A stretch of 29,908 nt of DNA. It comes from a virus. Shown here piece after piece: positions 8,484 through 24,791 of the stretch. The stretch's first letter is position 1, and each line of letters opens with the position of its first letter. The position numbers and the translations under genes were made by a program. The notes under the pieces are model-generated. The model was not told where the DNA came from. It worked only from the letters and a program-made list of their open reading frames with translations, and searched no databases. The DNA is taken from positions 1 to 29,908 of the IMG/VR virus record IMGVR_UViG_3300008120_000326, one strand, 5' to 3'.

Positions 8484-8877
8484 GTACAATAACATTGTAC
8501 GCAATAATCTAAATGAAATAGATTATACAATTGTCAGTAACATCGGTGATGACTACACTAAAGACATTATAGGCAATAAAGTTATCATGTTAATGCCCAT
8601 TGAGAGTCTAGAGGGATATACTACTAATACTGGTATAGGACTATCTAAAATGATTGAAAGCGGATTTACTGATAGCTTAAAGGTTTATACTACAATCTAT
8701 CTGTATATGCATAAACAAATAGATCCTGTTAAAGTAGCAGATATTATCAATACATTTGATAAGAACAATCTAGTAGATAATATTTGGCTCTACCCCACAT
8801 TAGAAAACTATGAAATAAGAGATAATAGTGTAGAAAACTTAGCTTGGCAGAAACTCAAACCACTCAACGTTAGCTGA
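8458..8877 (+). CDS. Small protein of unknown function
   Basis: This is a 139-aa Asn/Ile-rich protein with no recognised motif and no signal peptide. The open frame extends back to 8353, but those codons lie inside the glycosyltransferase gene. The ATG at 8458 has AAGGA only two bases ahead, so the start is uncertain. A segment MLMPIESLEGYTTNTGIGLS precedes alternating helix and strand. It ends the plus-strand operon, and its last 39 bases overlap the convergent minus-strand gene, leaving no room for a terminator. Confidence 0.55.
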   Translation: MNFIGNNCEYNNIVRNNLNEIDYTIVSNIGDDYTKDIIGNKVIMLMPIESLEGYTTNTGIGLSKMIESGFTDSLKVYTTIYLYMHKQIDPVKVADIINTFDKNNLVDNIWLYPTLENYEIRDNSVENLAWQKLKPLNVS

Positions 8878-9123
8878 ATACTCTAATAGCTTGTTTATTA
8901 TCTGACTATACTCAATAGTATTGATAACTTCATTGTAACTATCAATACTATCCCATCTACATTCATAATACTCACTAACGGGTATCATTTCATGTAATCT
9001 TAACGGGATATAGTCAGCCATTAGTTTACCTAATATGTCTTTCTCTTGCCAAGATGTATTGGGCAATATATCTTTGAATAATTCTTTGTCCCCAATATGT
9101 ATTTTAAAATAGTTCTTATACAT
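8839..9123 (-). CDS. Small protein of unknown function at the end of the minus operon
   Basis: This 94-aa acidic protein is rich in Tyr, Trp and Glu. Seen motifs are only SWQEKDILGKLM and a C-terminal WFEFLPS. The start used is the ATG at 9123, which overlaps the stop of the upstream oxygenase gene as ATGTATAA, the same junction sequence found at 14808. A GTG six bases earlier is the alternative. As the last gene after a PLP enzyme and a 2OG oxygenase it may be their partner or substrate, but nothing in the sequence proves this. Confidence 0.5.
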   Translation of the reverse strand: MYKNYFKIHIGDKELFKDILPNTSWQEKDILGKLMADYIPLRLHEMIPVSEYYECRWDSIDSYNEVINTIEYSQIINKLLEYSANVEWFEFLPS

Positions 9124-9604
9124 ATTCACACACTACTAAATGAGTACGGGTTACATTGTTACTACTGTTAAACACAGTATGTAATCTTCTTGCATTCAAT
9201 TTATATAAGTATCCGTCACTTGGTATATGGAATGCTTGATTAGTTTCTAAATCATATGCAACACAGCTAGGATCAGTAAATAACGCAATATGCCACCGTG
9301 CTTCAGTATCTCTATGCATTGTTAATAACTTAGCTGGGCCCATATTCATTATTCTAGCACGTCCAATCTTCCCTGGAATAATCTTTAATGTGTCTTCCCA
9401 TATAGTATCTTTGAATATACTATTCATATACTTGAACTCAGTATAAATCAATCGTTGCCCTGCATTTAGTACGTAATCCTCTGAGTCATCATGGTTATTC
9501 AAACATATTCTACTCTTATGTTGGGGCCAGTTCTGTACATTATTTAAATAATGTTTGCGTAAACCTTCTAGGTCTATTCTGATATCTGTCTTTTCTATTA
9601 GCAT
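9116..9604 (-). CDS. 2OG-Fe(II) oxygenase, Asp/Asn beta-hydroxylase-like
   Basis: This 162-aa protein shows the cupin-type iron triad. H97 and D99 lie in the motif MHRDTEARWHIALF, H142 in RRLHTVFN, and the 2OG-binding arginine is R153 in VTRTHLVV. The order and the spacing (about 45 residues between HxD and the distal His) fit the aspartyl/asparaginyl beta-hydroxylase family, which hydroxylates side chains of proteins or small molecules. The start ATG overlaps the stop of the upstream PLP-type gene by seven bases, so both are made together. Two further 2OG-like proteins with intact iron residues occur in the window (16059-16496 and 29180-29761). Confidence 0.78.
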   Translation of the reverse strand: MLIEKTDIRIDLEGLRKHYLNNVQNWPQHKSRICLNNHDDSEDYVLNAGQRLIYTEFKYMNSIFKDTIWEDTLKIIPGKIGRARIMNMGPAKLLTMHRDTEARWHIALFTDPSCVAYDLETNQAFHIPSDGYLYKLNARRLHTVFNSSNNVTRTHLVVCEYV

Positions 9605-10452
9605 AATTTGTCAAATAAATGTGTGATTCTAACTTTCTTATCAGGATTGTCTGTATTAGTATCAATACCCAAATGTAAACAATCTGATGTAGCCACGTTT
9701 AATAATTTGCAGGCTTCTTCCTGCACAGATTTATACTTCTCTGTAAAGTAATCTATATTGTATTTACTCATTAACTCACGTGCAATCTGGCAAGAATATA
9801 GATTTAAATAAGCATACTTATGATATATGTCATACTCCGGAATGAATTTATCTGTAAACATAATCCCAATCCTAGAATATCTTAATCCAAACCCTTTACT
9901 AAAACTGAATACAAAACTTTCAACGTTAGATAATTTATTAAAGTCTAATGTAATAGGGAACATATTAGTACCTAAGAATACGCTGTCCAGTGTGATTTTA
10001 CTAGTAGATTCAGTTAATAGTTTCTCTATATCAACATCCCTGTTCCCGTTTAAACTGAACGGATAACTAACTATCACTAACTTATCTGAATCCTTACCCA
10101 TAGTATCAAATGAATCATGCTGGGTAAATTTCATATTATGTAAGTCTAATAGTGTTCTATATGCTACATATTCATGCTTATGTAATTCTATGTGACGGTC
10201 TTCAAACTTAACTAAATCATCAATATACTGACTGCCACCATATAATACATAAACATACTTGAAACGTTCTAAGCCACGGATTATAGTACTATTACCATTT
10301 TGCAACCAATTAAGACATTCAGTACGGTAGTTGTTTAATATGTCATGGCGGGTATCCCAATGAGGTAACTCTATGTTATTTTTAAATAACTCAGATATTT
10401 CGGGGAATACGTATGGGACTAATGCATTCTCAGTTGGTGTATACTTTTGCAT
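9598..10452 (-). CDS. PLP-dependent aminotransferase-like protein, fold type I
   Basis: This 284-aa protein resembles the large domain of aspartate-aminotransferase-fold enzymes. LVIVSYPFSLNG (125-136) stands where family members have the Asn-Pro motif. D156 in TLDSVFLGT would contact the pyridine nitrogen. SFSKGFGLRYSRIG (183-196) is the typical PLP-lysine segment, with K186 as the Schiff-base lysine and R194 near the phosphate site. At 284 residues it is shorter than the usual 350-400 and lacks most of the C-terminal small domain, so its reaction is uncertain. It starts an operon directly under two late-promoter motifs, with no ribosome site. Confidence 0.68.
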   Translation of the reverse strand: MQKYTPTENALVPYVFPEISELFKNNIELPHWDTRHDILNNYRTECLNWLQNGNSTIIRGLERFKYVYVLYGGSQYIDDLVKFEDRHIELHKHEYVAYRTLLDLHNMKFTQHDSFDTMGKDSDKLVIVSYPFSLNGNRDVDIEKLLTESTSKITLDSVFLGTNMFPITLDFNKLSNVESFVFSFSKGFGLRYSRIGIMFTDKFIPEYDIYHKYAYLNLYSCQIARELMSKYNIDYFTEKYKSVQEEACKLLNVATSDCLHLGIDTNTDNPDKKVRITHLFDKLC

Positions 10453-10460
10453 TGGGTGCT

Positions 10461-10468
10461 TATTTATG
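10461..10468 (-). promoter_or_regulatory. Late promoter motif CATAAATA, minus strand
   Basis: On the minus strand CATAAATA ends eight bases before the ATG at 10452. A second match, GATAAATA, lies at 10476-10483 on the same strand. In T4-like phages transcription starts about six bases after this element, so the message would begin at or next to the start codon. No ribosome site fits in between. Confidence 0.6.
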
Positions 10469-10469
10469 A

Positions 10470-10477
10470 ACTAAATA
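10470..10477 (+). promoter_or_regulatory. Variant late promoter motif ACTAAATA, plus strand
   Basis: ACTAAATA is followed by eight bases and the ATG at 10486. It differs from NATAAATA by one base. The same octamer stands 4 and 7 bases before the starts at 23805 and 23951, which supports it as a working variant. Confidence 0.45.
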
Positions 10478-10485
10478 TTTATCTC

Positions 10486-11367
10486 ATGCTAGATTACCAT
10501 CTATATTTAAACAATAAACAAAACATATACACTGCCCAAAGCCTAGTGCATTATGGTATATTGTTACAGAACGACAAAATTAACACAGTTAAGCCCAATA
10601 TTGGGACATATACTAAACCCTATTATCTGATAGATGAGGGTATAATTTGTCACCCAGACTTAAACAATAAGATACGTAAACTACCCAACGTGGAAGTATA
10701 TAAGAATGGTAAACTTGTATTAAAAAAATCAACCGATAATACAGTTATAACAACATTCACTGATAACGTATACGACCTCTATAATACAACAGACCGTAAT
10801 ATTATTACGGATATCATTAACACATACGAGAATGATAGGAAAGTGTACGCTATAAACACAGAACCATTGCCCATCATTACCGATACTGTGGCACTTGCAG
10901 GACTTAGTAGTGGGTCACATTTAGCACAATTAGCATATGAAAACATGCTGGAAAGTGTTATCTATTATGACTACAGTAATGATAGCTTAAGCTTCCAACA
11001 AGAGTTATTACATTCAAACAACCGATATGACACATATGTCAAGTATCTAGGACTATTGACAACAGGGTTTAATCCTGCTACAATAGACGATATTAATGGT
11101 ATTGACTTTATTAAACTAAACACGTACTATGATTATCTTAGAACAATTAATGTCGGATTCGAGCTAATTGATATGCGGAATACAAAAGATATAAAACGTT
11201 TATTAGATGTTATTCCAAACGGCTCAACACTCTGGATCAGCAATGTATATCATTATATCACATCATTAAATGATTACAGTAAAGAACGCTACATATTAAT
11301 AGATGAACTATGTATAACAAAGAACATAACACTATTACCATACACAAGGATATATTATGAAAGCTAG
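10486..11367 (+). CDS. Rossmann-like protein, possibly a methyltransferase
   Basis: This 293-aa protein has no firm family. Residues 132-170 look like the first half of a Rossmann or class I methyltransferase fold. A strand leads into AGLSSGSHLAQLAYENM, in the position of a glycine-rich loop, and a second strand ends in an acidic VIYYDYSNDSLSFQ, where SAM enzymes carry their ribose-binding acid. The first 120 residues are Asn/Tyr-rich and unassigned. The ATG at 10486 is preferred over an in-frame ATG at 10447, because the latter would run through the divergent promoter region and add 13 unconvincing residues. Its stop overlaps the next gene, which begins after an AAGGA site. Confidence 0.5.
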   Translation: MLDYHLYLNNKQNIYTAQSLVHYGILLQNDKINTVKPNIGTYTKPYYLIDEGIICHPDLNNKIRKLPNVEVYKNGKLVLKKSTDNTVITTFTDNVYDLYNTTDRNIITDIINTYENDRKVYAINTEPLPIITDTVALAGLSSGSHLAQLAYENMLESVIYYDYSNDSLSFQQELLHSNNRYDTYVKYLGLLTTGFNPATIDDINGIDFIKLNTYYDYLRTINVGFELIDMRNTKDIKRLLDVIPNGSTLWISNVYHYITSLNDYSKERYILIDELCITKNITLLPYTRIYYES

Positions 11368-11953
11368 AATAACGTGTGACGAATCACATCCGTTAGGACA
11401 ACGATTTAGTACACTATTTGATTTAACTTATTACAGTAGACGCAATGGGTTTGACCTACACGGCGATATAACTAATTTCTTACTAGATACACCAAACTAT
11501 GATTATACAATTAACTTCACTAGGGCCATGCAGTTTGGACAAGTGAAACTGTTAGCTAATTTAGATAAACATTGCTATCATAATAAGATACAGCACAAGG
11601 TTATTAATATAGGAAGCTATGTTAATACGTTATTATTGAACAATCCCTACAGTAGTTATGATGTAGAGAAAGCTAGTTTAAAGTTTACACATAGAAAAAT
11701 AGCGTTTGCACGTATGTTCCATAACAATTACCTAGACAGTTATATGATTAATTTAGGGCATTTACAAGAGATTAGCGTTGATATACATAAGCATTACGAA
11801 CACTTAAATACATTAGCATTAGATGATGTTATAAAGAATGTTAAGTTTATGATTGACAAACCTTATATTAAAGAACTTAGTGTACAATACAAACAGCCGG
11901 GTAATCATAGAATCAATGATGGTATCGGCACAATATTACCAGGACTATATTAA
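11357..11953 (+). CDS. Short-chain dehydrogenase/reductase-like protein
   Basis: This 198-aa protein follows the SDR plan from the middle onward. It has an INFTRAMQFGQ segment in place of the NNAG motif, a strand with the catalytic-type serine in VINIGSYVN (S87), and Y101-x-x-x-K105 in SYDVEKASL, the YxxxK active-site pair. The N-terminal nucleotide loop is poorly matched (SHPLGQRFSTLF replaces TGxxxGIG) and the protein is about 50 residues short, so cofactor use needs proof. It starts at an ATG after AAGGA and its stop overlaps the radical SAM gene start (TAATG). Confidence 0.6.
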   Translation: MKARITCDESHPLGQRFSTLFDLTYYSRRNGFDLHGDITNFLLDTPNYDYTINFTRAMQFGQVKLLANLDKHCYHNKIQHKVINIGSYVNTLLLNNPYSSYDVEKASLKFTHRKIAFARMFHNNYLDSYMINLGHLQEISVDIHKHYEHLNTLALDDVIKNVKFMIDKPYIKELSVQYKQPGNHRINDGIGTILPGLY

Positions 11954-13359
11954 TGACATATTGGATTCAACCAGAAGATTCCCCAGTTGGAAACTTTCAA
12001 CAACAGATTAAAAATCAAGCAAAAGTAGATACATTCTGTGTATTACCCTGGATACACTTTGCTACACGTCCTAACGGTGATATGCGTCTATGCTGTAGTA
12101 GTAATGCTAGTGGCGCAGGTGGTGACCATACTATAGGATTAGTTAAGAATGAGAGTGGACAGCCAGCTAACTTCGGTCGTGAAACACCCATGAGTGCTTG
12201 GAATAATGAATACATGCGTAGTGTTAGAACTACGATGCTTGATGGTAAGATACCTAAAAGCTGTACTAAATGCTTTAATGAAGAATCACAAGGTGTTAGT
12301 AGTAAAAGGTTATGGGAAACATACACGTGGATGCAAGAAGATATAGATGTAGAAGAACTAATTAAACAAACACAAGAAGACGGAACCATCCCCGAAGAAT
12401 TAGTGTACTTAGACTTACGATTAGGACATACTTGTCAATTAAAATGCGTTATGTGTAGCCCACATGATAGTAGTAAGTGGGTTACAGAGTATAAGAAGGT
12501 TATCAATCTATATAAGAATGATGAATTAAAACGGCAAATGGGTTGGGATGAGCAATCATTTAATAATTATTGGCATGAGAACCCAGATTTTTGGGCTGAA
12601 ATGTACAAGCAAATACCTAACTTAAAACAAGTATATTTTGCCGGTGGCGAGCCATTAATGATTAAAGAACATAAGATGTTTATTGAAGAAATCATTAGAC
12701 AGGGATACCAGGATCGTATACTATTAAGATACAATAGCAATGGACTATTAGTAGATGATGATATTATAGACTTATGGAAACACTTTAAGAAAGTAAAGTT
12801 TGGCTTTAGTTTAGATGGTACTGACCAACGTAACTACTATATACGTTATCCTAGTGACTGGGCTACAGTTGAAAAGAACTTACATAAGTTAGACAATACA
12901 CCGGACAACATTGAAGTAAGTATTGCTACCGCTATACAAGTATTAAACATTAAACATTTACCTGAATTTATTAAATGGAAAGTCAATAGTAAGTTTAGAA
13001 AGGTTAATTTAGGATATGGTCCAGGAAATACTCAGTACGGTGGCGGATTAATTAACTTTCATCTACTGTATATTCCTACATATCTTAGCTTACGTGTGTT
13101 ACCTGAAGTAGATAAGCAAGAAGTACATCAATTGTTTAGTGAGTTGAAAGACTGGCTATGGAATAATTATACACAATCAGATGAGTTCTGGCATAAGAAT
13201 CCATATGGTTGGAAACGATATGAAGCTGTATTAAAGTTTATGGACGGCAGTGATGATACCCATCTATTGCCCGCGTTCAGTGAATATATAAGTCACATTG
13301 ATAGTCAGCGTAAGCTTAACCTTAAAGAAACTTTTCCCGAATTAAGTCACTTACTGTAA
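11953..13359 (+). CDS. Radical SAM protein with N-terminal SPASM/twitch-like Cys region (1 of 2)
   Basis: This 468-aa protein has two parts. Residues 25-120 hold a Cys-rich half-domain with C29, C47-C48, C104 and C107, plus PNGDMRLCC and SAWNNEYMRSVR. These match the auxiliary iron-sulfur module of twitch/SPASM proteins, placed N-terminally. The radical SAM core follows, with CQLKCVMC (C161, C165, C168) binding the cluster that cleaves SAM, GGEP at 231-234, and SLDG further on. Such proteins often modify peptides or small molecules; the substrate here is unknown. It is coupled to the SDR-like gene and shares its full layout with the gene at 14801-16069. Its last 38 bases overlap the convergent SGNH gene. 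Confidence 0.9.
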   Translation: MTYWIQPEDSPVGNFQQQIKNQAKVDTFCVLPWIHFATRPNGDMRLCCSSNASGAGGDHTIGLVKNESGQPANFGRETPMSAWNNEYMRSVRTTMLDGKIPKSCTKCFNEESQGVSSKRLWETYTWMQEDIDVEELIKQTQEDGTIPEELVYLDLRLGHTCQLKCVMCSPHDSSKWVTEYKKVINLYKNDELKRQMGWDEQSFNNYWHENPDFWAEMYKQIPNLKQVYFAGGEPLMIKEHKMFIEEIIRQGYQDRILLRYNSNGLLVDDDIIDLWKHFKKVKFGFSLDGTDQRNYYIRYPSDWATVEKNLHKLDNTPDNIEVSIATAIQVLNIKHLPEFIKWKVNSKFRKVNLGYGPGNTQYGGGLINFHLLYIPTYLSLRVLPEVDKQEVHQLFSELKDWLWNNYTQSDEFWHKNPYGWKRYEAVLKFMDGSDDTHLLPAFSEYISHIDSQRKLNLKETFPELSHLL

Positions 13360-13903
13360 GAGAAAACAGTTCATGCGTTTTGGGGCCCGGATGACTATTA
13401 TCTAATCCATAGTCTACTGGGTCAACCTTACTCACATCGAAGTCAAAAACATTGTTGATAAACGTACACTTATCCATTGCTAAAGGTAACTCTGTGCTGT
13501 TATCAGCTTTAAAGTGTATATGTTTCATGTTTAGTGAGTTTAGGTGTAGTTTAGCATGATGTATATTGATTAGTGTTTTAACGCTATAATCATAGGGTTC
13601 TGCGAATTCAACCCACGGTCTTTCAATGCCACCCTTATCCCATGGTCCAAACAATTCGCTAGTACCATCAATTTGTAAACGCATCTCTCTAGTAACATAC
13701 GTCCACATGATTACTACAATATCGTCTGGGTTAAACTTATAGTTCAGAATATTGTACAATATTTTATGATTGCTAACGCCACGTTGTCCTTGATTATCAC
13801 AGGGAATATTAAGATGTTTACTAGTTAAATAGGGCCATGCTGATTTATTGTCAGGTAAGCTGTCACCATATGTTAAGCTACATCCAAATGTTACTAATCT
13901 CAT
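13322..13903 (-). CDS. SGNH/GDSL-type hydrolase
   Basis: This 193-aa protein begins MRLVTFGCSLTYGDS, the block I signature of SGNH hydrolases, with S9 as nucleophile. It ends with the block V pair D168 and H171 in DNSHPGPKTHE. The intervening NQGQRGVSNHKI (block II Gly) and a central strand also fit. These enzymes remove acyl or acetyl groups from sugars, lipids or peptides. I use the ATG at 13903, which overlaps the stop of the upstream radical SAM gene as ATGA; codons further upstream belong to that gene. It is the last gene of an eight-gene minus-strand operon. Confidence 0.82.
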   Translation of the reverse strand: MRLVTFGCSLTYGDSLPDNKSAWPYLTSKHLNIPCDNQGQRGVSNHKILYNILNYKFNPDDIVVIMWTYVTREMRLQIDGTSELFGPWDKGGIERPWVEFAEPYDYSVKTLINIHHAKLHLNSLNMKHIHFKADNSTELPLAMDKCTFINNVFDFDVSKVDPVDYGLDNSHPGPKTHELFSLTVSDLIREKFL

Positions 13904-14808
13904 AATAATTCTTTCGTTAATGGTATATCTGCGGCGCAAGTACAGAAGTTTCTATCACATACAATTGGCTCTACGGGAAGAGTAAAATCACTAGAGTAGA
14001 TATTACCCAAGCTTCCACCAACACGGCATGTAGCACGATGTACCTCACCGTCCCAATTAATCATTAAACTCTCAAGTCCCGCATTGCAAGTCCAACCCTT
14101 ATACTTGTTTAGATGCAATTTAATCACATCATTAGCATGATAGGTCTTGCTATTATCTATTCTTACATTGGGCATAACTGTGCTAGCTTTTTTTAATATC
14201 CAATCTAAGTCTTTTTGGTCATAGCGTAAATCGTCAAAGATATCATGGTCTATATTATCACTCCAACGAACTCTACGTATATTATATGGAATATGGTAGA
14301 AATCTAATCTTTCTACGGTTTCTTTAACTTGAGCCATATAGTTATGGTGCGCCATGACATGTACTAAACAGTGTTTCTGATAGTCTTTCTCATCACTGTC
14401 ACTGGCTATTGTTTTGATAATAGTGTCTAAACAACGTTCCCATTCATATTCAAAGTGCAAACTAAACACTAATTGGTTAAGTTTTAATTGCTTATAGTAC
14501 AAAGGTTTCCGTGTAGCATTAGTAGTAACACTAATAAACTTTACATCTTTACTATTACAGTACTCTATTAATTCTTCAAACTTAGGATGTACAGTAGGTT
14601 CACCACCAGTAAAGCTAATACGTAATGGCTTATTGATAGACAACAGTTTATCTACCGTACTCTTTAATAGTTCAATATCAGTGTGTGGGCTGGTGTTATC
14701 GTGTATAATGCTTGGGCAATAGCTACAATCGTAGTTACAGCGTTTACCTAAATTCCATTCAATCTTAACGCTATTTTCGTGTCCCCAAATACCCTGTACC
14801 TTATACAT
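13900..14808 (-). CDS. Radical SAM protein with C-terminal Cys cluster (1 of 2)
   Basis: This 302-aa radical SAM enzyme has CNYDCSYC (C24, C28, C31) and GGEP at 68-71. The C-terminal third contains C241 in GWTCNAG, C261, C284, C289 and C291, enough for an auxiliary iron-sulfur cluster as in SPASM proteins. It is a clear paralogue of the gene at 21433-22410, which shares CNYSCSYC, the SGGEPT region and a GWxCNxG motif before its C-terminal cysteines. The ATG at 14808 overlaps the upstream stop as ATGTATAA and has GGAG ten bases ahead; an upstream in-frame start would lie deeper in the neighbouring gene. The substrate is unknown. Confidence 0.9.
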   Translation of the reverse strand: MYKVQGIWGHENSVKIEWNLGKRCNYDCSYCPSIIHDNTSPHTDIELLKSTVDKLLSINKPLRISFTGGEPTVHPKFEELIEYCNSKDVKFISVTTNATRKPLYYKQLKLNQLVFSLHFEYEWERCLDTIIKTIASDSDEKDYQKHCLVHVMAHHNYMAQVKETVERLDFYHIPYNIRRVRWSDNIDHDIFDDLRYDQKDLDWILKKASTVMPNVRIDNSKTYHANDVIKLHLNKYKGWTCNAGLESLMINWDGEVHRATCRVGGSLGNIYSSDFTLPVEPIVCDRNFCTCAADIPLTKELL

Positions 14809-16069
14809 ATGGTTTAAACTCCGGTACAACTTCTAATAGTGTTTTGCACTTTCTACTGTCATCTAATCTACGATTAAACTCTATGTAATCACTCCACAAA
14901 TTGTTTTGGTCAACAGCTTTTAAGTAGTTGATATTGTCATTGATTTGTTGTAATGTAATGCCACGACTGTATGCACTAAAGTCAATGTTCTTAATTGTAT
15001 CAATATTATTATACAAATTAGTTAATCGTTCAATACATAAGTCTTTTAATGGTTGGGGTAATACTTGTGCAGATAGTAGTTTAGGATAGCTAACACGATG
15101 ACTGTAGAAGTATATACCTAAGTCATCTAAGAAATATCTGATACAATCAGCCATTTGTAACATATTGCCCGCTTGTGCAGTAAATGCCCCCACGATTCTA
15201 CTGATATTAGGTAATTTTTTAATCTCTTGTACATTTCTAACAACTTCACTAAAGTCACCGTTACCTCTAATATGTTCATATACATCATGTATTCCGTCTA
15301 TAGATACGTTAACCGCAACACTACGGAAGTGAGGCCAGTAGTCAAAGATTGTTCTATTCTTACTAATACCCAATGTTGTACCGTTTGTAGCATATTTGAT
15401 TTCAATATTTTTAGCGTAGGGCTTAAGCATATCTAGTATCTTATAGTGTTGAGGATCCATTAAGGGTTCACCACCAGCAAACTCTACACGTTTAAAGTGT
15501 GGGATTAGTTTCTCAAAGCTATTCCACCAATTGTCACTATCATCAAACGGACCTATATATTGTCCGGGCTTATCCACTAACTTCTCTACCGTAGGAACTA
15601 AGTAATTGTTTTCTTTCTTATAGAATTCAACGATACTATTCCAGTCTTGCCAGCTTGTACTATCTAGTGGGTTACACATTCTACAGCGTAAATTGCACAG
15701 ATTGTTTAGTTTAATCTCCATTGTAGGGAATTCAAAGGGCATTGAATAGTCATCATTTAATTGATTTAATTGATTTGGATACAATACAATTCTGCTCTCA
15801 GGGAGTCTGGGTTGTATATGTCGTTGTCGCAAGCTTTCAACACCCTGATCTTCTAAGTCAAAGCAGGGTGTACATACGTCAGGGCGTTCGTCATTTAGTA
15901 TTTGCTTACGTACACTAAGCATCTTATCATTGTTCCATGCGGATTCTAATGATTCGTTTTGAATCCATCCGATAGGCAGACTGCGACAGCATATCTTAAT
16001 TGCCCCGTCTTCTCTTGTAGCTAAACCCGTAAATGGGTGCATACAGAATGTTTTACTTTTATCCGACAT
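14801..16069 (-). CDS. Radical SAM protein with N-terminal SPASM/twitch-like Cys region (2 of 2)
   Basis: This 422-aa protein is laid out like the one at 11953. An N-terminal Cys module comes first (C9, C27-C28, C66, C69, with SAWNNDKMLSVR), then the radical SAM core CNLRCRMC (C125, C129, C132), AGGEP at 198-202 and SIDG. The two proteins share the FCxxPFxxxAT-like opening, the WNN motif and the CxxC near residue 66. They are therefore duplicated family members that now sit in oppositely oriented operons. Its start overlaps the stop of the small 2OG-type gene by 11 bases, and its end overlaps the next radical SAM gene. Confidence 0.9.
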   Translation of the reverse strand: MSDKSKTFCMHPFTGLATREDGAIKICCRSLPIGWIQNESLESAWNNDKMLSVRKQILNDERPDVCTPCFDLEDQGVESLRQRHIQPRLPESRIVLYPNQLNQLNDDYSMPFEFPTMEIKLNNLCNLRCRMCNPLDSTSWQDWNSIVEFYKKENNYLVPTVEKLVDKPGQYIGPFDDSDNWWNSFEKLIPHFKRVEFAGGEPLMDPQHYKILDMLKPYAKNIEIKYATNGTTLGISKNRTIFDYWPHFRSVAVNVSIDGIHDVYEHIRGNGDFSEVVRNVQEIKKLPNISRIVGAFTAQAGNMLQMADCIRYFLDDLGIYFYSHRVSYPKLLSAQVLPQPLKDLCIERLTNLYNNIDTIKNIDFSAYSRGITLQQINDNINYLKAVDQNNLWSDYIEFNRRLDDSRKCKTLLEVVPEFKPYV

Positions 16070-16496
16070 ATTTAATATATAAGTTTGTTTTATCTTTTAG
16101 GTACTCTACTACATCATTATACACTAATTCAAAGTCTAATGCTAGAAAACTAAAGCCCTTTATTCCATTGATCCCATGCAATATTGACGTATCTAATACA
16201 AATGGTTTGTCAATAATTACCGAATTGTTACCATATAATAGTGTTGTATTGTCCGTATCTATGGGTAAAATGATTGTACTATTGCGTCCCTCGTCGGTAT
16301 GCATAGGTAGTGTGTCACTTTGCGTAACACCATAGCAGGAATACTTATAGTCAATGTTAGTTTCAAAACGATTTTTACTAACATTATATTCTAATAGATC
16401 ACCGTTGCTATATGATACAGGGGTAGTGTTATGTTGTATATGGTCTAACCCTAAATTCAAGTTAGATTTATCGTATATAATATCAACTACCTGCAT
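16059..16496 (-). CDS. Small 2OG-Fe(II) oxygenase-like protein
   Basis: This 145-aa protein has the core of a double-stranded beta-helix oxygenase. LPMHTDEGRNSTIILPID gives H66 and D68, then PFVLDTSILHGI places H107 about 40 residues later. The 2OG-anchoring arginine that usually follows is not obvious (K113 is nearest), so the co-substrate may differ or the site may be altered. The ATG at 16496 has AAGGT a few bases upstream and overlaps the preceding 60-aa gene by 14 bases. It lies directly before the two radical SAM genes, which suggests that it acts in the same pathway. Confidence 0.62.
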   Translation of the reverse strand: MQVVDIIYDKSNLNLGLDHIQHNTTPVSYSNGDLLEYNVSKNRFETNIDYKYSCYGVTQSDTLPMHTDEGRNSTIILPIDTDNTTLLYGNNSVIIDKPFVLDTSILHGINGIKGFSFLALDFELVYNDVVEYLKDKTNLYIKYVG

Positions 16497-16665: not shown

Positions 16666-17342
16666 GTGTTTTCAATATGTTGTTTTAAATACTCTGTATC
16701 AAGTTTGATACCGTTATTGTTGCAGTAATTAATCTGATACAATAAGTTATTGCTATTATCTAACATGTATTTATTTTTAGGGTGATGCCACTTTTTAAAA
16801 TCAAAGTAGAAATAGCCTATATCATCACGCAATCGTTTTGTTGGTAGTATAAAGACGCTGGGTAATCCTGTTTTAAACACACTATCAACCTCAAACAGTG
16901 CTTTAAACAATGGTACAGTTGAGTCAATAAACTCTATGAAGTAATCATTATTCACCCTATTGTTTACTATATCTAAATGGTAATCAATTCCTATCTGATT
17001 GTTTGGGCGTTGAACTACGGTGTATAAGTATTGTTTGTCATTGATTATAACAGTCTCAGAATGTCGTGGTATTTCTATCCTATAGTTGTATTTCTCTGTT
17101 AATCTATATAACAGTTTGTGCTTATCAAAGTCGTCATTACGGTACAAACAGCTTAGTTTATATACAAAGCCTGTTGCTTTATCTATATAGCAACTGGTAT
17201 ATTCGTTATTAACGGTATATCCTGTATCATTATGACTCCATGTATATTTGCTATCATAACTATATGGTAGTGGTATATTGTGAAATTGTTTCACATTCTC
17301 ATACTTGTAATTCTCTATCAGATTAGAAAGATAGTCTAACAT
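16650..17342 (-). CDS. Unknown protein, faint kinase-like features
   Basis: This is a 230-aa Tyr/Asn-rich soluble protein. Residues 50-115 recall the N-lobe of small-molecule or protein kinases: GFVYKLSCLYRN, a helix with DKHKLLYRL, then QYLYTVVQRP as a possible hinge. Later, DDIGYFYFDFKKW might stand for the metal-binding DFx region. No catalytic HxD loop is visible, so it may be a pseudokinase or unrelated. It is overlapped by 20 bases at its start and 16 at its end by its neighbours, in the middle of the eight-gene operon that begins with the adenylating enzyme. Confidence 0.45.
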   Translation of the reverse strand: MLDYLSNLIENYKYENVKQFHNIPLPYSYDSKYTWSHNDTGYTVNNEYTSCYIDKATGFVYKLSCLYRNDDFDKHKLLYRLTEKYNYRIEIPRHSETVIINDKQYLYTVVQRPNNQIGIDYHLDIVNNRVNNDYFIEFIDSTVPLFKALFEVDSVFKTGLPSVFILPTKRLRDDIGYFYFDFKKWHHPKNKYMLDNSNNLLYQINYCNNNGIKLDTEYLKQHIENTWTIE

Positions 17343-17904
17343 CTATGTTACCCTCGTAATACTTTTGATAGTCACTAAACCATAAATCTCTGTCAAGCAA
17401 CCAAACGTTCTGAACAGTGTTTAAGTATGTAATTTTATCGTATAATAATGTACATCCACTTACTCTATTACGTTTAGCGATAGTATCAAACATACGACTA
17501 CGTCCTGCGGTATCAACTTTATTTTGATTGTCGTTGCTGGTTATAATAAACGTACCCGTACCGTAGTTATGTTCTACCCATTTCATTTCTAATGTGAAAA
17601 GCACACCGGCGCTGTATGATATTTTTCTAAAGTTATTAGATGGTTTTGGTTTAAACTTGTCATCATAGAGAGTTACGGCTCTAAATCCTACACGCCAATA
17701 TTGTTTGTTATCATATTCAAAGTTATGTACCCCGCTGAATACTTTAATTTTGTCATCTTCTATCCCTGCAAAGAATGCAGAATGTTCAAAGTAATCAAAC
17801 TTAATCTTATCTAGTGTAGAGTTATTGTTATATCCATGTGTTGAACACCGTACAATGAAGTCGGGTAATAGTGGGTCATCTTTGTATATTTGTTTAAAGT
17901 ACAT
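17323..17904 (-). CDS. Unknown protein, possibly GNAT-like acyltransferase
   Basis: This 193-aa protein is the second gene of the operon, directly after the adenylating enzyme. The segment SAFFAGIEDDKIKVFSGVHN followed by YWRVGFRAVTLYD resembles strands 2-4 of GNAT acyltransferases, with a basic loop where CoA would bind. The usual R/QxxGxG/A pyrophosphate loop is not clear, so this is weak. A transferase acting on an adenylated acyl group would fit the position, but that is inference. Start and stop overlap both neighbours (11 and 20 bases). Confidence 0.4.
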   Translation of the reverse strand: MYFKQIYKDDPLLPDFIVRCSTHGYNNNSTLDKIKFDYFEHSAFFAGIEDDKIKVFSGVHNFEYDNKQYWRVGFRAVTLYDDKFKPKPSNNFRKISYSAGVLFTLEMKWVEHNYGTGTFIITSNDNQNKVDTAGRSRMFDTIAKRNRVSGCTLLYDKITYLNTVQNVWLLDRDLWFSDYQKYYEGNIDVRLSF

Positions 17905-19072
17905 TTCTAATCTTTTTTCCTAGTGAAGTCTTGGGTAAAGATTCGACATATGTATATTTTCTTGGTATGCTATAAACAGGAACATGTGTTTCTAGCATAG
18001 AATTTAGTGTTTGTTTATTAATAATAGTGTTATTAGTGTAAGCTACTTCAATGTAATCAGTGCCCATTTTATTTCTAGGGATAGCTAAGACTTCACCCAG
18101 GTTTGTATTATTCTCAATAGTAGATTCAATTAATAATAAACTGCATTGATATCCGTTTAGTTTCACAATGTCATTAGATCGTCCAGCAAATTTGACTAAG
18201 TTTCCTTTCTGTTCCCATAAATCATTTGTCTTAAACCATTCTCCGTCTGACGAAAAATCTTTATAGTTCACACATAATGTTTTACTCTTGACATATAGTT
18301 CATTATTGACTAATTTAAACTCACTAATATCTGTATTCTTTAATTCTAAATAGTCTGGATAGTCATCTATTGAAGTGCTACTCTTGTACAATGAAGGAGA
18401 ACCTATCTCAGTGGCACCGTACAACTGATTAACTTCAGTAGCACCCAGACTGAACAATATTCCAGTATGTCTTTTAGATACAGCAGAAGCTCCTGTACCC
18501 ACTCGTTTAACCCTAGATAAATCAACTGGCATGTTGTTCATACGAATCATATCAATTAATGATGGTACTAATATAGTGTAATTAACATCCTCATTGAGGT
18601 TTTCTATCAATGTTTCACGTGACCCTAATACAATTGTTGAATTGTTATATAATGCAGGTGCAAGTACAATATGCCAGAACCCAGATGTTGACGCGGGGAA
18701 GAAATTCAAAAATCTAGTGTTCTCTTCCCAACGCATATGCTTAGTTGCCATAAGTGCGATACTGTCCATTTGTTCTTTGGTGTGTACTACTAATTTAGGT
18801 ACACCTGTAGTTCCGCTAGTATGAAAGCATATAGAGTTTTTGTAACTGTAGTTACTAATCTTTTCGTCTAGTATTTCTGATTGCTTCTCGGGTAATATAG
18901 TAGATTTAACAAAGATGTTGCCACCCACTTTAGTCCAAGCTATGTAAGCCGCAATGTGTTCAATATAATTTTGCGTATTAACTACGTATATTTTACTATC
19001 CTTTAATTGTGTTTCAGCCAGTTTAACATGAGATGTAATGTTGATTTCTTGCTGATTTTGAATTATTTTCAT
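17894..19072 (-). CDS. ANL-superfamily adenylating enzyme (acyl/aminoacyl-AMP ligase)
   Basis: This 392-aa enzyme should activate a carboxylic acid with ATP. All core motifs are present in order: P-loop TSGTTGVPK (85-93), YGATE (218-222), TND (282-284) with D284 for ribose, GR at 297-298, and the C-terminal catalytic lysine near K386 in PKTSLGKKIR. It is about 100 residues shorter than typical acyl-CoA synthetases because the N-terminal subdomain is reduced. No carrier-protein gene is visible nearby. The ATG at 19072 (MKIIQNQQE) is chosen because an AATAAATA late-promoter motif lies five bases upstream; the frame stays open to 19165, across the divergent promoter region. It heads the eight-gene minus operon that ends at 13322. 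Confidence 0.9.
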   Translation of the reverse strand: MKIIQNQQEINITSHVKLAETQLKDSKIYVVNTQNYIEHIAAYIAWTKVGGNIFVKSTILPEKQSEILDEKISNYSYKNSICFHTSGTTGVPKLVVHTKEQMDSIALMATKHMRWEENTRFLNFFPASTSGFWHIVLAPALYNNSTIVLGSRETLIENLNEDVNYTILVPSLIDMIRMNNMPVDLSRVKRVGTGASAVSKRHTGILFSLGATEVNQLYGATEIGSPSLYKSSTSIDDYPDYLELKNTDISEFKLVNNELYVKSKTLCVNYKDFSSDGEWFKTNDLWEQKGNLVKFAGRSNDIVKLNGYQCSLLLIESTIENNTNLGEVLAIPRNKMGTDYIEVAYTNNTIINKQTLNSMLETHVPVYSIPRKYTYVESLPKTSLGKKIRNVL

Positions 19073-19077
19073 AAGAA

Positions 19078-19085
19078 TATTTATT
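19078..19085 (-). promoter_or_regulatory. Late promoter motif AATAAATA, minus strand
   Basis: This is an exact NATAAATA match five bases before the ATG at 19072. The expected transcription start falls on the start codon, and there is no ribosome site between them. Confidence 0.65.
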
Positions 19086-19124
19086 GAGTTATAGCATGTC
19101 CTTTTAATAAACCTTATTTCCAGT

Positions 19125-19132
19125 GATAAATA
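19125..19132 (+). promoter_or_regulatory. Late promoter motif GATAAATA, plus strand
   Basis: This is an exact NATAAATA match seven bases before the ATG at 19140. It is divergent to the motif at 19078, and the 67-base gap between the two genes holds both. Confidence 0.65.
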
Positions 19133-19139
19133 CAATACT

Positions 19140-19865
19140 ATGTTTAACATTAATAACCTACTCAACTCCCCAATTCAGACGACTCCATGGTCTCACCAAA
19201 GCGTTTCTGGTTTTTTTGAAACTGATGCACACACCAAAATTACCGAAGGAATTCAAGGGCTATTAGCCACTTTAAATCCTACCGAAACGTATGATGGTTT
19301 GACTAATATATCTATATATGATGCCAAAGATGCTATTGGCCAAGAAGCGTTTGACCTTATTTCAGAAGCAAATGAGTCTATACTAGATAATCTTAGTAAT
19401 ATTTTTACCAAGTATCCAAATCATAGAAATTATTCTAGTGTTATGTGTGTACCTTCATTTAGTGTAATAGCACCCAATCATATATTTCCGTATATTAATG
19501 ATAGTGCAATTGACAAAGTATGTAACATTGTTTCGTTTATGACACCAAACATTAATATAGAAACCGTGCTATATAAATCCAATGACCCAGAGTCTGAGAA
19601 TGCAACGGTTACTAATCAGTATAATACAGCTAGCATGTATTGCCCTACATCAAATGTTACGTGGGCAAAGTATAATTCAACAGCTACACGTTATGTTACT
19701 ATTAATTTCTTTGTGAGCAACAATGTTTTTGATTCATTAACATTAGTTGATGATAACTACCAATATCTTACACTTGAAGGTCAATTAGTTACTATACCTA
19801 AAAATGCCGCAAGTGATGCTACAATTGCTGATGCCCAAGCAGGTAAACTAGTTAGAAACTTATAA
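19140..19865 (+). CDS. Possible degenerate 2OG oxygenase-fold protein
   Basis: This 241-aa protein is the only plus-strand gene between two long minus-strand operons. Residues about 115-200 follow the spacing of prolyl-hydroxylase-like 2OG oxygenases. IFPYINDSAIDKVCNIVSFM stands where PHxD-K-xSxVxYL is expected, ETVLYK matches the GT-x-LY step, and a final ATRYVTINFF matches the R-x-S/T-L-x-F strand. The iron-binding HxD is replaced by Y-x-N and no distal His is seen, so it would not be an active enzyme of that class. It could equally be an unrelated beta-rich structural protein. It has its own late promoter, and its last six bases overlap the convergent methyltransferase gene. Confidence 0.45.
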   Translation: MFNINNLLNSPIQTTPWSHQSVSGFFETDAHTKITEGIQGLLATLNPTETYDGLTNISIYDAKDAIGQEAFDLISEANESILDNLSNIFTKYPNHRNYSSVMCVPSFSVIAPNHIFPYINDSAIDKVCNIVSFMTPNINIETVLYKSNDPESENATVTNQYNTASMYCPTSNVTWAKYNSTATRYVTINFFVSNNVFDSLTLVDDNYQYLTLEGQLVTIPKNAASDATIADAQAGKLVRNL

Positions 19866-20465
19866 CTTACCAATTAGCATATAACGAGAGTACAACGGTA
19901 ATTGTAACTCTCCTTGAAACAGGACTTTTAAGTTGCTTTGACTCTTAAAGTCCTGTAAATCATTACAGATTCTAACATGTTCTGGTATGTCATAGTTATT
20001 GCTTTGTAACACGATTAAACTATTGTGAGGTAGCCCACTTAACCACAAATCATATTGATCCTGTGTAATATGTTCACAGCTTGTATTAATAATGATATCA
20101 GCATCGGATCTAATGTCACACATATCATATGTTACTGCTCTAAATCTATTCTCTAATTCTTCTTTACGGTTCATCATATTAGCAATTGATTCGCAAGTAT
20201 GGTCTATATCAACACTACGTATAGATGATATATGTAAATTACTTTGAAATAACATACTAGCCAATACCCCTACCCATCCACCGTGAATGTCTACTGCTAG
20301 TTTTGTTTTGTTAATATATGGACGGACAACAAACTCTAAGCTATCTATTAACCATTCTTTACTTTTAAGTTGTCCACTCCAAAATGCATCCATGGTTCGC
20401 ATTTGGTTCTCGCTATTTCTAATAGCTTGCATCCAGTAGTGTAAATGTTCTAAATCAATTTTCAT
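19860..20465 (-). CDS. Class I SAM-dependent methyltransferase
   Basis: This 201-aa protein has motif I as AVDIHGGWVGVLASML (about 57-72), a second strand ending in the acidic IRSVDIDHT (D86, D88), and INTSCEHI as the motif IV strand. The order of strands and helices fits a Rossmann-fold methyltransferase without an added substrate domain. The start overlaps the stop of the upstream radical SAM gene as ATGA, and it is the last gene of the 23805-19860 operon. The methyl acceptor is unknown, possibly the product of the neighbouring radical SAM enzymes. Confidence 0.75.
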   Translation of the reverse strand: MKIDLEHLHYWMQAIRNSENQMRTMDAFWSGQLKSKEWLIDSLEFVVRPYINKTKLAVDIHGGWVGVLASMLFQSNLHISSIRSVDIDHTCESIANMMNRKEELENRFRAVTYDMCDIRSDADIIINTSCEHITQDQYDLWLSGLPHNSLIVLQSNNYDIPEHVRICNDLQDFKSQSNLKVLFQGELQLPLYSRYMLIGKL

Positions 20466-21445
20466 TTAAACTGTTCTCCAAACTTATCAAACACACCGCA
20501 TTGTTTGCTACATTCTTTTAATGAATTGTTATTCCATGTGTTTTCTATCTTATTGAAATATTGTGATTCAAAGATTTCTTCTAGGGTATTGTTGTTTAGA
20601 TTAGGGAACTCACCGATCTGATCCATGTAATCTATTCGTGATTCGTTCATGGGTGCGAACCAGTTAACATCTAACCAACAGCATGGGCTAACAGTTCCGT
20701 CACTACCTATATACAACTGACTATACTTCTGTGCTTTGCATAGTATTTGTGGTCTGTCTATTGTGATAGCTGACAATACACTGTCACGTAGTTCTTTACT
20801 ACGTTGTGTGGGTTCAATGATATGAACAGTCTTACCGTCATTATCTATTACTGGTAGATTATCTTTTTGAAAGCGTGAAGTGTGTTTAACTTCAAACTTG
20901 TTAAAGCCTAGTGTTTTACTAAGTTGTTCACAACTTTCTATTTGATGTTCATTATGTTTAAATGCTAGCATATGCCACTCAGCACTGCCACCCGCACTAA
21001 TAAAAGCTTTTGCATTATCTATAATCTTATGGTAATCAGTAGATACACGATATAATTGATGAGTGTCAGCTAGTCCGTCGATTCCAAATATAACTCTGAC
21101 ATTTAGTTTAGCTAGTTTCTTCCACCATTCTGTATCTTTAGCACTACCGTTTGTGTTCATTGATAGCGTAATATTGGGATTGGATTCACGTAGGTATTGA
21201 TAGATTTCTAGTGTATCTTTGGCAACAATAGGGTCGCCTAAGTTACCACACATAAACAACCGTGATAGTTGTTTCACAAAGTCAACATTGAACCATTCTT
21301 TAAATGTTTCTAATGTAATTTCATTGAGTTCAATATATGGGTTGAGTGGTCCACCATGAGGTCGTCTAGGGCACATTGGGCAACGTGCTTGACATTTGCT
21401 TGTTATTTCTAAATGAATCTCTTTGATATTGTTTAGTTTATACAT
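20462..21445 (-). CDS. Radical SAM/SPASM protein
   Basis: This 327-aa protein starts almost at once with the cluster motif CQARCPMC (C18, C22, C25). The SAM-binding GGEP is replaced by GNLGDP, a variant seen in SPASM-type radical SAM proteins. Near the C-terminus IGSDGTVSPCCWLD gives a pair of cysteines, and KECSKQCG supplies the remaining SPASM ligands. It is therefore a conventional C-terminal SPASM enzyme, unlike the two N-terminal-module proteins of the island. Its start overlaps the upstream radical SAM gene by 13 bases, and the methyltransferase follows with ATGA overlap. Confidence 0.9.
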   Translation of the reverse strand: MYKLNNIKEIHLEITSKCQARCPMCPRRPHGGPLNPYIELNEITLETFKEWFNVDFVKQLSRLFMCGNLGDPIVAKDTLEIYQYLRESNPNITLSMNTNGSAKDTEWWKKLAKLNVRVIFGIDGLADTHQLYRVSTDYHKIIDNAKAFISAGGSAEWHMLAFKHNEHQIESCEQLSKTLGFNKFEVKHTSRFQKDNLPVIDNDGKTVHIIEPTQRSKELRDSVLSAITIDRPQILCKAQKYSQLYIGSDGTVSPCCWLDVNWFAPMNESRIDYMDQIGEFPNLNNNTLEEIFESQYFNKIENTWNNNSLKECSKQCGVFDKFGEQFK

Positions 21446-22410
21446 TTTACTTTTGGTAATTTACTATCGGCTGAACTGACACATGCGGTTGATATACAGA
21501 CTTTTGGTTCAGTGAATATTGTAAAGTTATCTAGTGTACCAATCGGTTGATCCATACAACTATAGCTACGTTTAACTTCATTCTCTCTAATCACTATACC
21601 CTGATAACCACTATTGCACATCCATCCTTTAAAGTTGTTGAATCCAAAACTATTAAAGCGTTCAGCTTGATCCAGATACCATACTTTGTTAGTATCATCT
21701 ATTAACTTAACTTGATATAGGTCTTGTTGATTTAGTTGTTGTGGGAACCCTGTACGCATACGATATAGCATGTCATCAGTATATCCATCAACTACTCTGC
21801 TAGCTGTAGGGTCACTTTGAGGCTTTAGTGTAACGTTGATACCCCTATCATTAAATCGTTTGCATCTATCATATAGTTGTTCAAACTGTTCAGGAACCAT
21901 AACTTGATTAATTGTTACGAACACCTGGTTATTCATTAAGAATAATATCTTATCACCAAACTCTACTTCATCTGCAAACTCATGGTGAAAGCTAGCAGTA
22001 ATACTACGGCGTTGCATGTATTTTGTATTCTCTAACCATCGTTCCCACCATTTGATACCGGGACTTAAGTTAGTAGTCATGTGAATACTTTGATAATCTT
22101 CAACGCCCAAGTGTGCTACAAGTTCATTCAATTGCTTATAAGCGGTAGGTTCACCGCCACTTAAGCTCCAATGAAACTTAGTGAATCCGTTATGTCTTGC
22201 TTGTTTTTTGATACTATCAATAGCTCTAGTATAGACTTCAAACTCTTTATAGTCTGGTGTTTGACTGTTAGCATAGGGCCAGCAATAGCTACAACTATAG
22301 TTACAGAATCTACCTAATATCCAACTGATACTGAATAGGTTAGAATCAAGCATTGTAGCCTGACCAAACTTAACTATTCGTTCAAATGGTATATCAGTGA
22401 AATCTGTCAT
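21433..22410 (-). CDS. Radical SAM protein with C-terminal Cys cluster (2 of 2)
   Basis: This 325-aa protein has the motif CNYSCSYC (C36, C40, C43) and SGGEPT at about 84-89. Its C-terminal third has GWMCNSG, then cysteines in SYSCMD, PKVCISTAC and KVKC, for an auxiliary cluster. It is the paralogue of the gene at 13900-14808 with the same architecture but low identity, so the duplication is old or the two act on different substrates. It overlaps the glycosyltransferase-like gene before it by 17 bases and the SPASM gene after it by 13. Confidence 0.9.
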   Translation of the reverse strand: MTDFTDIPFERIVKFGQATMLDSNLFSISWILGRFCNYSCSYCWPYANSQTPDYKEFEVYTRAIDSIKKQARHNGFTKFHWSLSGGEPTAYKQLNELVAHLGVEDYQSIHMTTNLSPGIKWWERWLENTKYMQRRSITASFHHEFADEVEFGDKILFLMNNQVFVTINQVMVPEQFEQLYDRCKRFNDRGINVTLKPQSDPTASRVVDGYTDDMLYRMRTGFPQQLNQQDLYQVKLIDDTNKVWYLDQAERFNSFGFNNFKGWMCNSGYQGIVIRENEVKRSYSCMDQPIGTLDNFTIFTEPKVCISTACVSSADSKLPKVKCIN

Positions 22411-23443
22411 ACTGTTCCTTCATCCACACAAAGTCATTTATCTTTTGTAGCATATTCATATTATGTCTATGCTGTTCACCGTACTCACGTCCTTTGATAG
22501 CACCATCGATTGCATAACTGTCAGTACCCGTTGTACACCATATGTCTAATCGTTTCTTTGTTTCGTCATCAATTTGTCCGGGTATGACCTGACTACTTAG
22601 TTTAGTACATTCTCTGAATGCCGATCTCCATGTATTGAATGGGTCAGTATTAAATTGTGTTATGTTACTAACAACCATTATGGGTTCATAGTTCTTACAT
22701 ATGCTTGTAGTCATATCAGGTCTGTCTGTATTCATTCTCACCGTTGCTGTTCTGGGTAATAGTTTTACTCCACCATATCCATATACCAAGTCATTGACTG
22801 GATTCTTTGCTCTCCAAACACGTGTACATAAGTTATCATAGAAAGGTACAACATAGTCAAACTTAAAGTCATCTACAATTTCAGCATCACCATCAACTAC
22901 CCAAAAGTAATCAGTATCACACAGTTTTGCCGCTTCTATGTGTGCATTGTGTATTCCCTTGACTCCATGTATGCGTTTAGCTCTAGGGAATCTTGTTAAC
23001 AAAAGTTTGTAGTTTTTGTCACAATTGAGTTCATTATAGCTAATGAATACAATGTCATATGGTTTGTTGTCAGGACAGCGTAATATAGGTTTTACTTGTT
23101 CCTTGTACAGTTTGCTATCTCCATTGCTGTATACGTTTTTTATTCTACGGTCGTTTGTTTTTACACGAATTAGTTGACCAATTCTGTTACATTCTGTTTC
23201 TAATCTATCTCTAAATTTTGAATCGCTAAACGTAAGGTCATAGAACATATTATCTATATAGTTAAAGTCATGTAGATTTTTCAAGTCGAAGTTAAGTAAT
23301 GCTTGCCAGCATCCAAAACGTGCCCCGTGTATAGCCCACAATCCGTTAGTAACATCACTGCCTATGTGCATCCAGTTCCATAGTCTATCAAAGTTACGCC
23401 AGTCGATTTCCTCTAGACTAGATACAACTAATCCATTCCTCAT
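22394..23443 (-). CDS. Glycosyltransferase-like protein, continuation of a frameshifted two-domain gene
   Basis: This frame encodes 349 residues. Residues from about 125 to the end form a full copy of a family seen in phages: IVFISYNELNC, RFPRAKRIHGVKG and a DxD-like WVVDGDAE (181-188). It goes on with VWRAKNP and a C-terminal WRSAFRE. Residues 1-120 are not a new domain. They match the end of the same family (MRNGLVV following the in-frame AWRAGFREGVKLC just upstream) and belong to the domain encoded by 23440-23805 in another frame. One inserted G in the GGGG run at 23496-23499 would join the two into one protein with two tandem domains. The ATG at 23443 (ATGA overlap) may still allow restart. 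A sugar-transfer role is inferred from the DGD motif. Confidence 0.7.
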   Translation of the reverse strand: MRNGLVVSSLEEIDWRNFDRLWNWMHIGSDVTNGLWAIHGARFGCWQALLNFDLKNLHDFNYIDNMFYDLTFSDSKFRDRLETECNRIGQLIRVKTNDRRIKNVYSNGDSKLYKEQVKPILRCPDNKPYDIVFISYNELNCDKNYKLLLTRFPRAKRIHGVKGIHNAHIEAAKLCDTDYFWVVDGDAEIVDDFKFDYVVPFYDNLCTRVWRAKNPVNDLVYGYGGVKLLPRTATVRMNTDRPDMTTSICKNYEPIMVVSNITQFNTDPFNTWRSAFRECTKLSSQVIPGQIDDETKKRLDIWCTTGTDSYAIDGAIKGREYGEQHRHNMNMLQKINDFVWMKEQYDRFH

Positions 23444-23805
23444 ACATAGTTTAACACCTTCACGGAATCCAGCACGCCACGCTTGTAATGGGCTACCCCG
23501 TTTCCATATTGTAGTCCGTTGATATGATTTCTAGTACTAAAGCTAACAACTTTACAATTAAAGTCATCTATGTTATACTCGTTTGTAAAGAAGTCAGACC
23601 GCACATAGTTATCACCGTCGATGATGTTAACACGATCACCTGTACATAGTTCAGCTACTTTTTTGTGTGCAGTATCAGATCCCTTGACTCCGTGTACTCT
23701 TTTAGCAGTTGGACATAGTTCTAATAGACGTTTGTAATTACTTTCGCAATTTGGTTCGTCATAGCTAAGGAAGACGGTTTCGTAGTTAGTAGGTATGAAT
23801 AGCAT
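23440..23805 (-). CDS. N-terminal half of the frameshifted glycosyltransferase-like gene
   Basis: This frame gives 121 residues. ETVFLSYDEPNC, AKRVHGVKG and IIDGDNY (DGD at 63-65) match the second domain encoded by 22394-23443, which shows a tandem duplication. After GNG (101-103) the sequence loses the family pattern and soon stops. In the next frame it resumes as SPLQAWRAGFRE, equivalent to TWRSAFRE in the other copy. The break is at a run of four G (minus strand), so an indel, a sequencing error or ribosomal slippage could explain it. The ATG at 23805 is four bases after ACTAAATA. The frame is open to 23895, but that part has no counterpart in the second copy. Confidence 0.65.
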   Translation of the reverse strand: MLFIPTNYETVFLSYDEPNCESNYKRLLELCPTAKRVHGVKGSDTAHKKVAELCTGDRVNIIDGDNYVRSDFFTNEYNIDDFNCKVVSFSTRNHINGLQYGNGVAHYKRGVLDSVKVLNYV

Positions 23806-23809
23806 GAAA

Positions 23810-23817
23810 TATTTAGT
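23810..23817 (-). promoter_or_regulatory. Variant late promoter motif ACTAAATA, minus strand
   Basis: The octamer ACTAAATA ends four bases before the ATG at 23805, with no ribosome site in between. The longer string ACTAAATATTT also occurs at 10470 on the plus strand before another island operon. Confidence 0.45.
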
Positions 23818-24646: not shown

Positions 24647-24652
24647 ATATAT

Positions 24653-24729: not shown

Positions 24730-24735
24730 TATTAT

Positions 24736-24764: not shown

Positions 24765-24791
24765 TCAAAATGTCAAATTATTGCTATAAAG

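Follow-up and report, generated by a model that had tools for sequence, protein, structure and literature searches.

A conserved six-gene radical SAM module in uncultured T4-like phages

An island of radical SAM genes in a viral fragment

The stretch of DNA analysed here, IMG/VR virus record IMGVR_UViG_3300008120_000326 (29,908 bases, in the following the window), is a fragment whose own gene content is T4-like. It carries an island of 19 genes (numbered g2-g20, positions 8839-23895) which encodes five radical S-adenosylmethionine (SAM) proteins, g7, g9, g10, g17 and g18, together with a protein of predicted methyltransferase fold, g16. The island is preceded on the left by nrdA, nrdB and genes for a glutaredoxin, a PAAR protein and an endolysin-like protein, and 14 tRNA genes follow on the right. 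Open reading frames (ORFs) were called mechanically. A first reading of the letters of the window (the original prediction) had listed the more conspicuous genes of the island, and all of them were found in their places. It had also described overlaps of 4-20 bases between neighbours and expression as units. Overlaps are indeed present and range from 1 to 40 bases, but the coding strand changes repeatedly and divides the genes into at least five blocks, so the island is not one operon.

All five radical SAM proteins pass the curated cut-off of Pfam PF04055 (E 2.5e-11 to 1.5e-12), and the CxxxCxxC motif already recognized in the original prediction is kept in 96-100% of the orthologues of each. 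Two of them, g7 and g10, are paralogues within one family and clear members of NF033640 (twitch domain-containing radical SAM protein, cut-off 170 bits), whose name states no reaction and whose bacterial representatives share 23-31% identity with g7; g9, g17 and g18 do not pass this model. The profiles of g9 and g18 match each other, and both proteins are related to no named equivalog. Mean column identity amounts to 81% for g10 (27 sequences) and to 75% for g18.

By its fold g16 is a class I SAM-dependent methyltransferase with predicted activity, in agreement with the methyltransferase first proposed for the island. Its AlphaFold model (predicted local distance difference test, pLDDT, 92.8) has more than 1,000 PDB matches at E<=0.001, with Foldseek E values down to 2.4e-10. 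PDB profile searches with alignments of g16, of c8 and of the QueC-like proteins yielded nothing useful.

Linkage and co-inheritance of the core genes

In the viral contigs of IMG/VR 157 relatives of g10 are found, and those of g18 and g16 number at least 576 and 599, respectively. Scans were anchored separately on these three genes (best 80 loci per query). Forty g10 loci extend more than 8 kb to each side; all of them contain g7, 37 contain g9 and 36 contain g17. For a set of 47 g10-anchored loci the corresponding counts are 47, 47 and 43. Loci anchored on g18 with flanks of 6 kb or more contain g16 and g17 throughout (19/19 each) and g7 in 18 of 19 cases, and those anchored on g16 with the same flank contain g17 (20/21), g18 (19/21) and g7 (17/21). 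Since distances of up to 7 kb separate g7, g9 and g10 from g18 and g16, short flanks lower the counts of the former three; at one locus (L261) only g16 and g18 were seen. The cassette is thus common to hundreds of uncultured T4-like phage sequences as a linked set. Its genes g7, g9, g10, g17, g18 and g16 form a conserved phage module, which very probably acts as one system.

The members of this core do not all share the same history. When their amino-acid distance matrices were compared over 95-172 loci per pair, the correlation was highest for g7 and g10 (r 0.77, Mantel range 0.73-0.77), followed by g18-g16 (0.67), g9-g18 (0.52) and g9-g16 (0.45), with all other core-gene pairs at 0.08-0.26. 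Where all six genes are present (61 loci), none of 500 label permutations gave more than 0.30, and for g7-g10 none gave more than 0.17. The pattern is unchanged after removal of outlier loci or of near-duplicates (thinning at 10%), and outliers were rejected as its cause. Linkage was rejected as well. The genes g7 and g10 are located on opposite strands about 2.4 kb apart, and about 5.8 kb separate g9 from g18; only g18-g16 among the four correlated pairs is often adjacent (43%). Pairs that mostly abut correlate weakly, namely g10-g9 (r 0.22, abutting in 77%) and g17-g16 (r 0.12, 64%), and adjacency is therefore not the cause. There are two co-inherited sets, g7 with g10 and g9 with g16 and g18, whose members are not neighbours as a rule. 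The simplest reading of this co-inheritance suggests that each set works as a functional unit, either as a complex or in successive steps.

Table 1. Coordinates and assignments of the island features and of the flanking glycosyltransferase gene (window numbering)
Gene	Assignment	Position	Strand	Basis or remark
f11	glycosyltransferase flanking the island	7824..8483	+	phrog_28018, E 7.6e-50; 53% to annotated glycosyltransferase of Synechococcus phage S-SCSM2R
g3	2-oxoglutarate (2OG)-type oxygenase-like, 162 aa; frequent partner	9116..9604	-	HxD...H...R; no profile match
g4	probable pyridoxal phosphate (PLP) fold-type I enzyme; accessory	9598..10452	-	D and SK motif in five homologues
g7	N-twitch radical SAM, 468 aa; core	11953..13359	+	NF033640, 390.5 bits; distances track g10
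g8	SGNH hydrolase-like; variable partner	13322..13939	-	GDS-type N terminus read from the sequence
g9	radical SAM with twitch-like C-terminal cysteines, 309 aa; core	13900..14829	-	PF04055, 47 bits
g10	N-twitch radical SAM, 422 aa; core	14801..16069	-	NF033640, 308.4 bits
g11	oxygenase-like; local accessory	16059..16496	-	HxD...H in three sequences (window, L004, L009)
g14	ANL adenylating enzyme; local accessory	17894..19165	-	PF00501, 64.2 bits (cut-off 29.9)
g16	class I SAM methyltransferase fold (predicted), 201 aa; core	19860..20465	-	AlphaFold and Foldseek; 4-base overlap with g17
g17	radical SAM/SPASM, 327 aa; core, most variable member	20462..21445	-	PF04055 and SPASM PF13186
g18	radical SAM with C-terminal cysteines, 325 aa; core, g9 paralogue	21433..22410	-	PF04055, 44 bits
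g19+g20	GT-A-like transferase, two DGD repeats	22394..23895	-	split here into 349 and 151 aa

Accessory genes, carriers and related systems

Around the core the gene content differs strongly between loci. The ANL adenylating enzyme with complete motifs described in the original prediction is clearly present (g14, Table 1), with TSGTTGVPK, YGATE, GRSNDIVKLNGYQ and the C-terminal lysine visible, and none of 25 listed CoA-ligase and related models reaches its own cut-off with it. Homologues of g14 occur in 1 of 230 viral loci (L004, divergent). For the PLP fold-type I assignment of g4 the catalytic residues speak in favour, as D and S-x-S-K-[GT]-x-G are kept in five homologues, but neither a profile nor a PDB sequence matches; among the 230 loci there are 23 homologues, mostly remote (two close, about 20 remote). 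With one ANL homologue and so few close PLP homologues both genes are accessories, and a single pathway including them was rejected for the conserved core. For g5, g6, g11, g13 and g15 homologues were found in 0-3 of the 230 loci each, with 2-3 loci for the first four. The single system foreseen in the original prediction thus holds for the five radical SAM genes and g16, which co-occur almost always, but not for the ANL gene or these five. Homologues scattered and alone, named there as an argument against one system, are what is seen for ANL, g5, g6, g11 and g13 and not for the core.

The oxygenase-like proteins g3 and g11 have no profile match. All 23 aligned sequences of the g3 family conserve HxD, a further H and, eleven positions beyond it, an R, and the family is found in 47/47 g10-anchored loci; g11 keeps HxD...H in three sequences and is without a conserved Arg. 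The label short-chain dehydrogenase/reductase (SDR) proposed for an island protein is not supported by Pfam for g5 or g6. Homologues of g8 are found in 47/230 viral loci. The DGD repeats of the transferase g19/g20 are present as described, with a weak resemblance to GT-A folds. In a near-identical contig (L002:1183-2823) this gene is intact as a single 546-aa frame, and compared with it the window (23440-23895) has 139 bases fewer at 23497/23498, which splits the gene and may be a real deletion or an assembly difference.

Many relatives' loci contain extra radical SAM genes, with a motif count of as many as eight in 21 kb. Such loci also encode additional 2OG-type oxygenases and SDR-like proteins as well as, upstream of g10, a QueC-like PP-loop protein. 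The latter (L009:9223-10008 and about 35 other loci) shows SGGADS and a widely spaced C...CGxCxxCxER; it is QueC/QatC-like in style and stays below the Pfam QueC cut-off. At the margin of the cassette region, L040 (19309-19527) and 26 other viral loci have a gene for translation initiation factor 1 (IF-1; TIGR00008 92 bits, cut-off 61), which adjoins an AbrB-like one. Inside this region a conserved protein of 57-64 aa with no family match is encoded (L019:15517-15711, L012:3263-3436 and 23 other loci), possibly a small partner protein or a substrate. The 14 tRNA genes of the window (24570-29906) are interspersed with two HNH endonuclease-like genes (24817-25269 and 27558-28118), the second of which has 76-82% relatives in other cassette-bearing viral loci.

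All four tested virus contigs longer than 180 kb have T4-type major capsid genes; seven shorter ones gave no capsid match, as fragments may give. In a 108-kb contig binned with a gammaproteobacterial metagenome-assembled genome (MAG) the whole core of six genes is present in diverged form, with three further N-twitch paralogues, and the same MAG also holds several T4-type capsid contigs. Nine radical SAM genes are located on a single strand within about 12 kb of L084 (5590-17573), a contig binned with a gammaproteobacterium, and in a Bacteriovoracaceae MAG (L096:8829-12422) g17-, g7- and g10-like radical SAM genes stand side by side, adjoining a fatty acid desaturase gene. The original prediction had proposed to look for the same gene set in other phage genomes and metagenomes. 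The core was recovered in IMG/VR but not in cultured phages, where tblastn of g10, g4, g19, g14, g18, g7 and g16 against 50,697 records gave nothing or remote matches only, and a cultured phage with the same module was rejected. A scan of genome contigs with g10 orthologues found no bacterial source of g10, and one with g7 and g10 returned mostly 23-31% relatives and two virus-like contigs.

The statement that no known phage pathway has such a set was too strong. Campylobacter phages CP220 and CPt10 have 11 and 12 radical SAM genes, respectively, of which five belong to an interchangeable module (PMC2853527), a marine T4-like TARA genome has 12 (PMC5332604), and pelagimyophage host-recognition clusters, which hold lipopolysaccharide genes, gain radical SAM cassettes (PMC7029224). 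The module of CP220/CPt10 (and CP21) resembles that of the window in its T4-like carriers, its interchangeable character and its size, with five radical SAM genes spread over about 10 kb. In CP21 the genes lie near PAAR, tail lysozyme and tail-fibre genes, the island of the window being also near PAAR, and CP21_027 matches the g9 and g18 profiles (E 8e-17 and 1e-13). However, the similarity is remote only (22% identity), the published Campylobacter module includes a putative glycine amidinotransferase for which Pfam finds no match in the window island, and the searched CP21 stretch has no g16 or g17 match. Cultured Pelagibacter phage Mosig encodes relatives of g17, g9 and g16 (89, 36 and 65 bits) together near VrlC, in a cluster with an oxygenase, a DegT sugar aminotransferase (E 1e-74), a carbamoyltransferase and a GT8-like gene; DegT and the carbamoyltransferase are extra when compared with the window, and no g7/g10 relatives were matched in this cluster. 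The large marine Vibrio phage K566 (~250-kb group) has, like the window, clustered radical SAM genes with several of the N-twitch type, here near a PagP lipid A gene, whereas the stretch searched is without a g16 or g18 match. Modules with multiple radical SAM genes are therefore already known in T4-like phages as a kind, though not in their function. As far as the searched literature shows, the conserved core of six genes is new, and so are its wide occurrence in viral metagenomes and the division into two co-inherited sets.

Possible products of the module

The product we favour, tentatively and at somewhat less than even chances, is a glycan or decorated sugar. This preference rests on the neighbours in Mosig, on the glycosyltransferase f11 that flanks the island, on the pelagimyophage host-recognition clusters and on Candidatus Jettenia, in which two GT2 glycosyltransferase genes flank an N-twitch radical SAM gene and a gene for a Wzt O-antigen exporter adjoins them. 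In such a scheme the core radical SAM enzymes would perform C-H chemistry (dehydrogenation, epimerisation, deoxygenation or similar) on a sugar or a sugar-linked intermediate, which the module would also methylate, and glycosyltransferases would then attach the product to a host surface polymer or to the virion. The tailoring genes around the core change from locus to locus (2OG oxygenases, glycosyltransferases, SGNH hydrolase, acyl-activating and PLP enzymes), and the accessory acyl-activating enzymes would vary the decoration, as expected in an arms race over phage-host recognition. With slightly lower probability, the g7/g10 pair and the g9/g18/g16 trio may represent a phage radical pathway of a new kind, building an undescribed modified sugar or glycoconjugate whose decoration is varied by exchangeable accessories.

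Several points weigh against this proposal. No sugar-nucleotide enzyme with a profile match is present in the window itself, and bacterial loci with N-twitch genes other than Jettenia, which alone is clear, have no consistent glycan context. The GT-A resemblance of g19 is weak (best PDB match E 0.0066, predicted template modelling score 0.64); its DGD repeat is present. Among the structures closest in fold to g16 are N-terminal protein methyltransferases, although such matches do not fix the substrate. Moreover, the choice of the best loci per query leans to close relatives, and the evidence for co-inheritance consists of distance correlations and not of phylogenetic tests on reconciled trees.

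The main alternative is that the cassette modifies a phage structural protein (such as a tail fibre or spike) or a peptide made by the ribosome. Radical SAM and 2OG enzymes would then introduce C-H changes, while g16 would methylate and g19 glycosylate the target. Peptide maturases often contain SPASM and twitch domains. We consider this explanation unlikely but still to be reckoned with. In its favour are the oxygenases, the structural neighbours of g16 (N-terminal protein methyltransferases are at the top) and g19 (its weak matches include polypeptide GalNAc-transferases and SunS) and the QueC-like accessory of many relatives; proteins of the QueC family can link a nucleobase to a protein (PMC13279940, PMC13329287). 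The vicinity of PAAR, shared with the radical SAM genes of CP21, points in the same direction. On the other hand, no small ORF of precursor type is conserved alongside the core, the 57-64-aa family (25 loci) being absent from the window; Pfam finds no PqqD-like recognition domain, and the listed maturase equivalogs for ribosomally synthesized and post-translationally modified peptides all score far below their cut-offs. Among the candidates for a peptide precursor no family fits; the small ORFs that recur are mostly frames that overlap tRNA genes or run antisense, or else IF-1, AbrB-like and further small phage genes.

A small molecule, lipid or nucleotide-type product attached to neither glycan nor protein, for instance a modified nucleotide or an amide formed via adenylated acids, appears rather improbable. 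Both the ANL enzyme (window and L004) and the QueC-like PP-loop enzyme of many relatives belong to carboxylate-activating classes, but the ANL gene is nearly confined to two loci. The g9 profiles also give remote matches to tetraether lipid synthase, viperin, MoaA and QueE, of a kind that the radical SAM fold produces generally. Scans of the window island proteins for the genes of 7-deazaguanine DNA modification (QueC, QueD, QueE, FolE, DpdA) gave nothing above cut-off, and no QueD, FolE or DpdA/TGT partner was found among them.

A mere hotspot gathering unrelated metabolic genes, with radical SAM proteins acting on separate substrates, would agree with the strongly varying accessory genes, the strand changes and the lack of shared history in most core-gene pairs, but it is very improbable and largely refuted for the core, in which all six genes occur together with any of the three anchors and two sets co-vary with adjacency not the cause; for ANL, g5, g6, g13 and g15 it is the best reading.

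Islands with multiple radical SAM genes have been noted in T4-like phages since 2010, with no function known for them. What emerges here is a core of six genes, conserved in sequence and shared by many uncultured aquatic T4-like viruses, which can be told apart from the accessory genes that had led the original prediction astray. The co-diverging enzymes (g7 with g10; g9 with g16 and g18) reduce the problem to a small testable set, and with Pelagibacter phage Mosig a cultured relative sharing part of the module is at hand. If the product is indeed a surface sugar, these phages would bring radical chemistry into the contest over host recognition.

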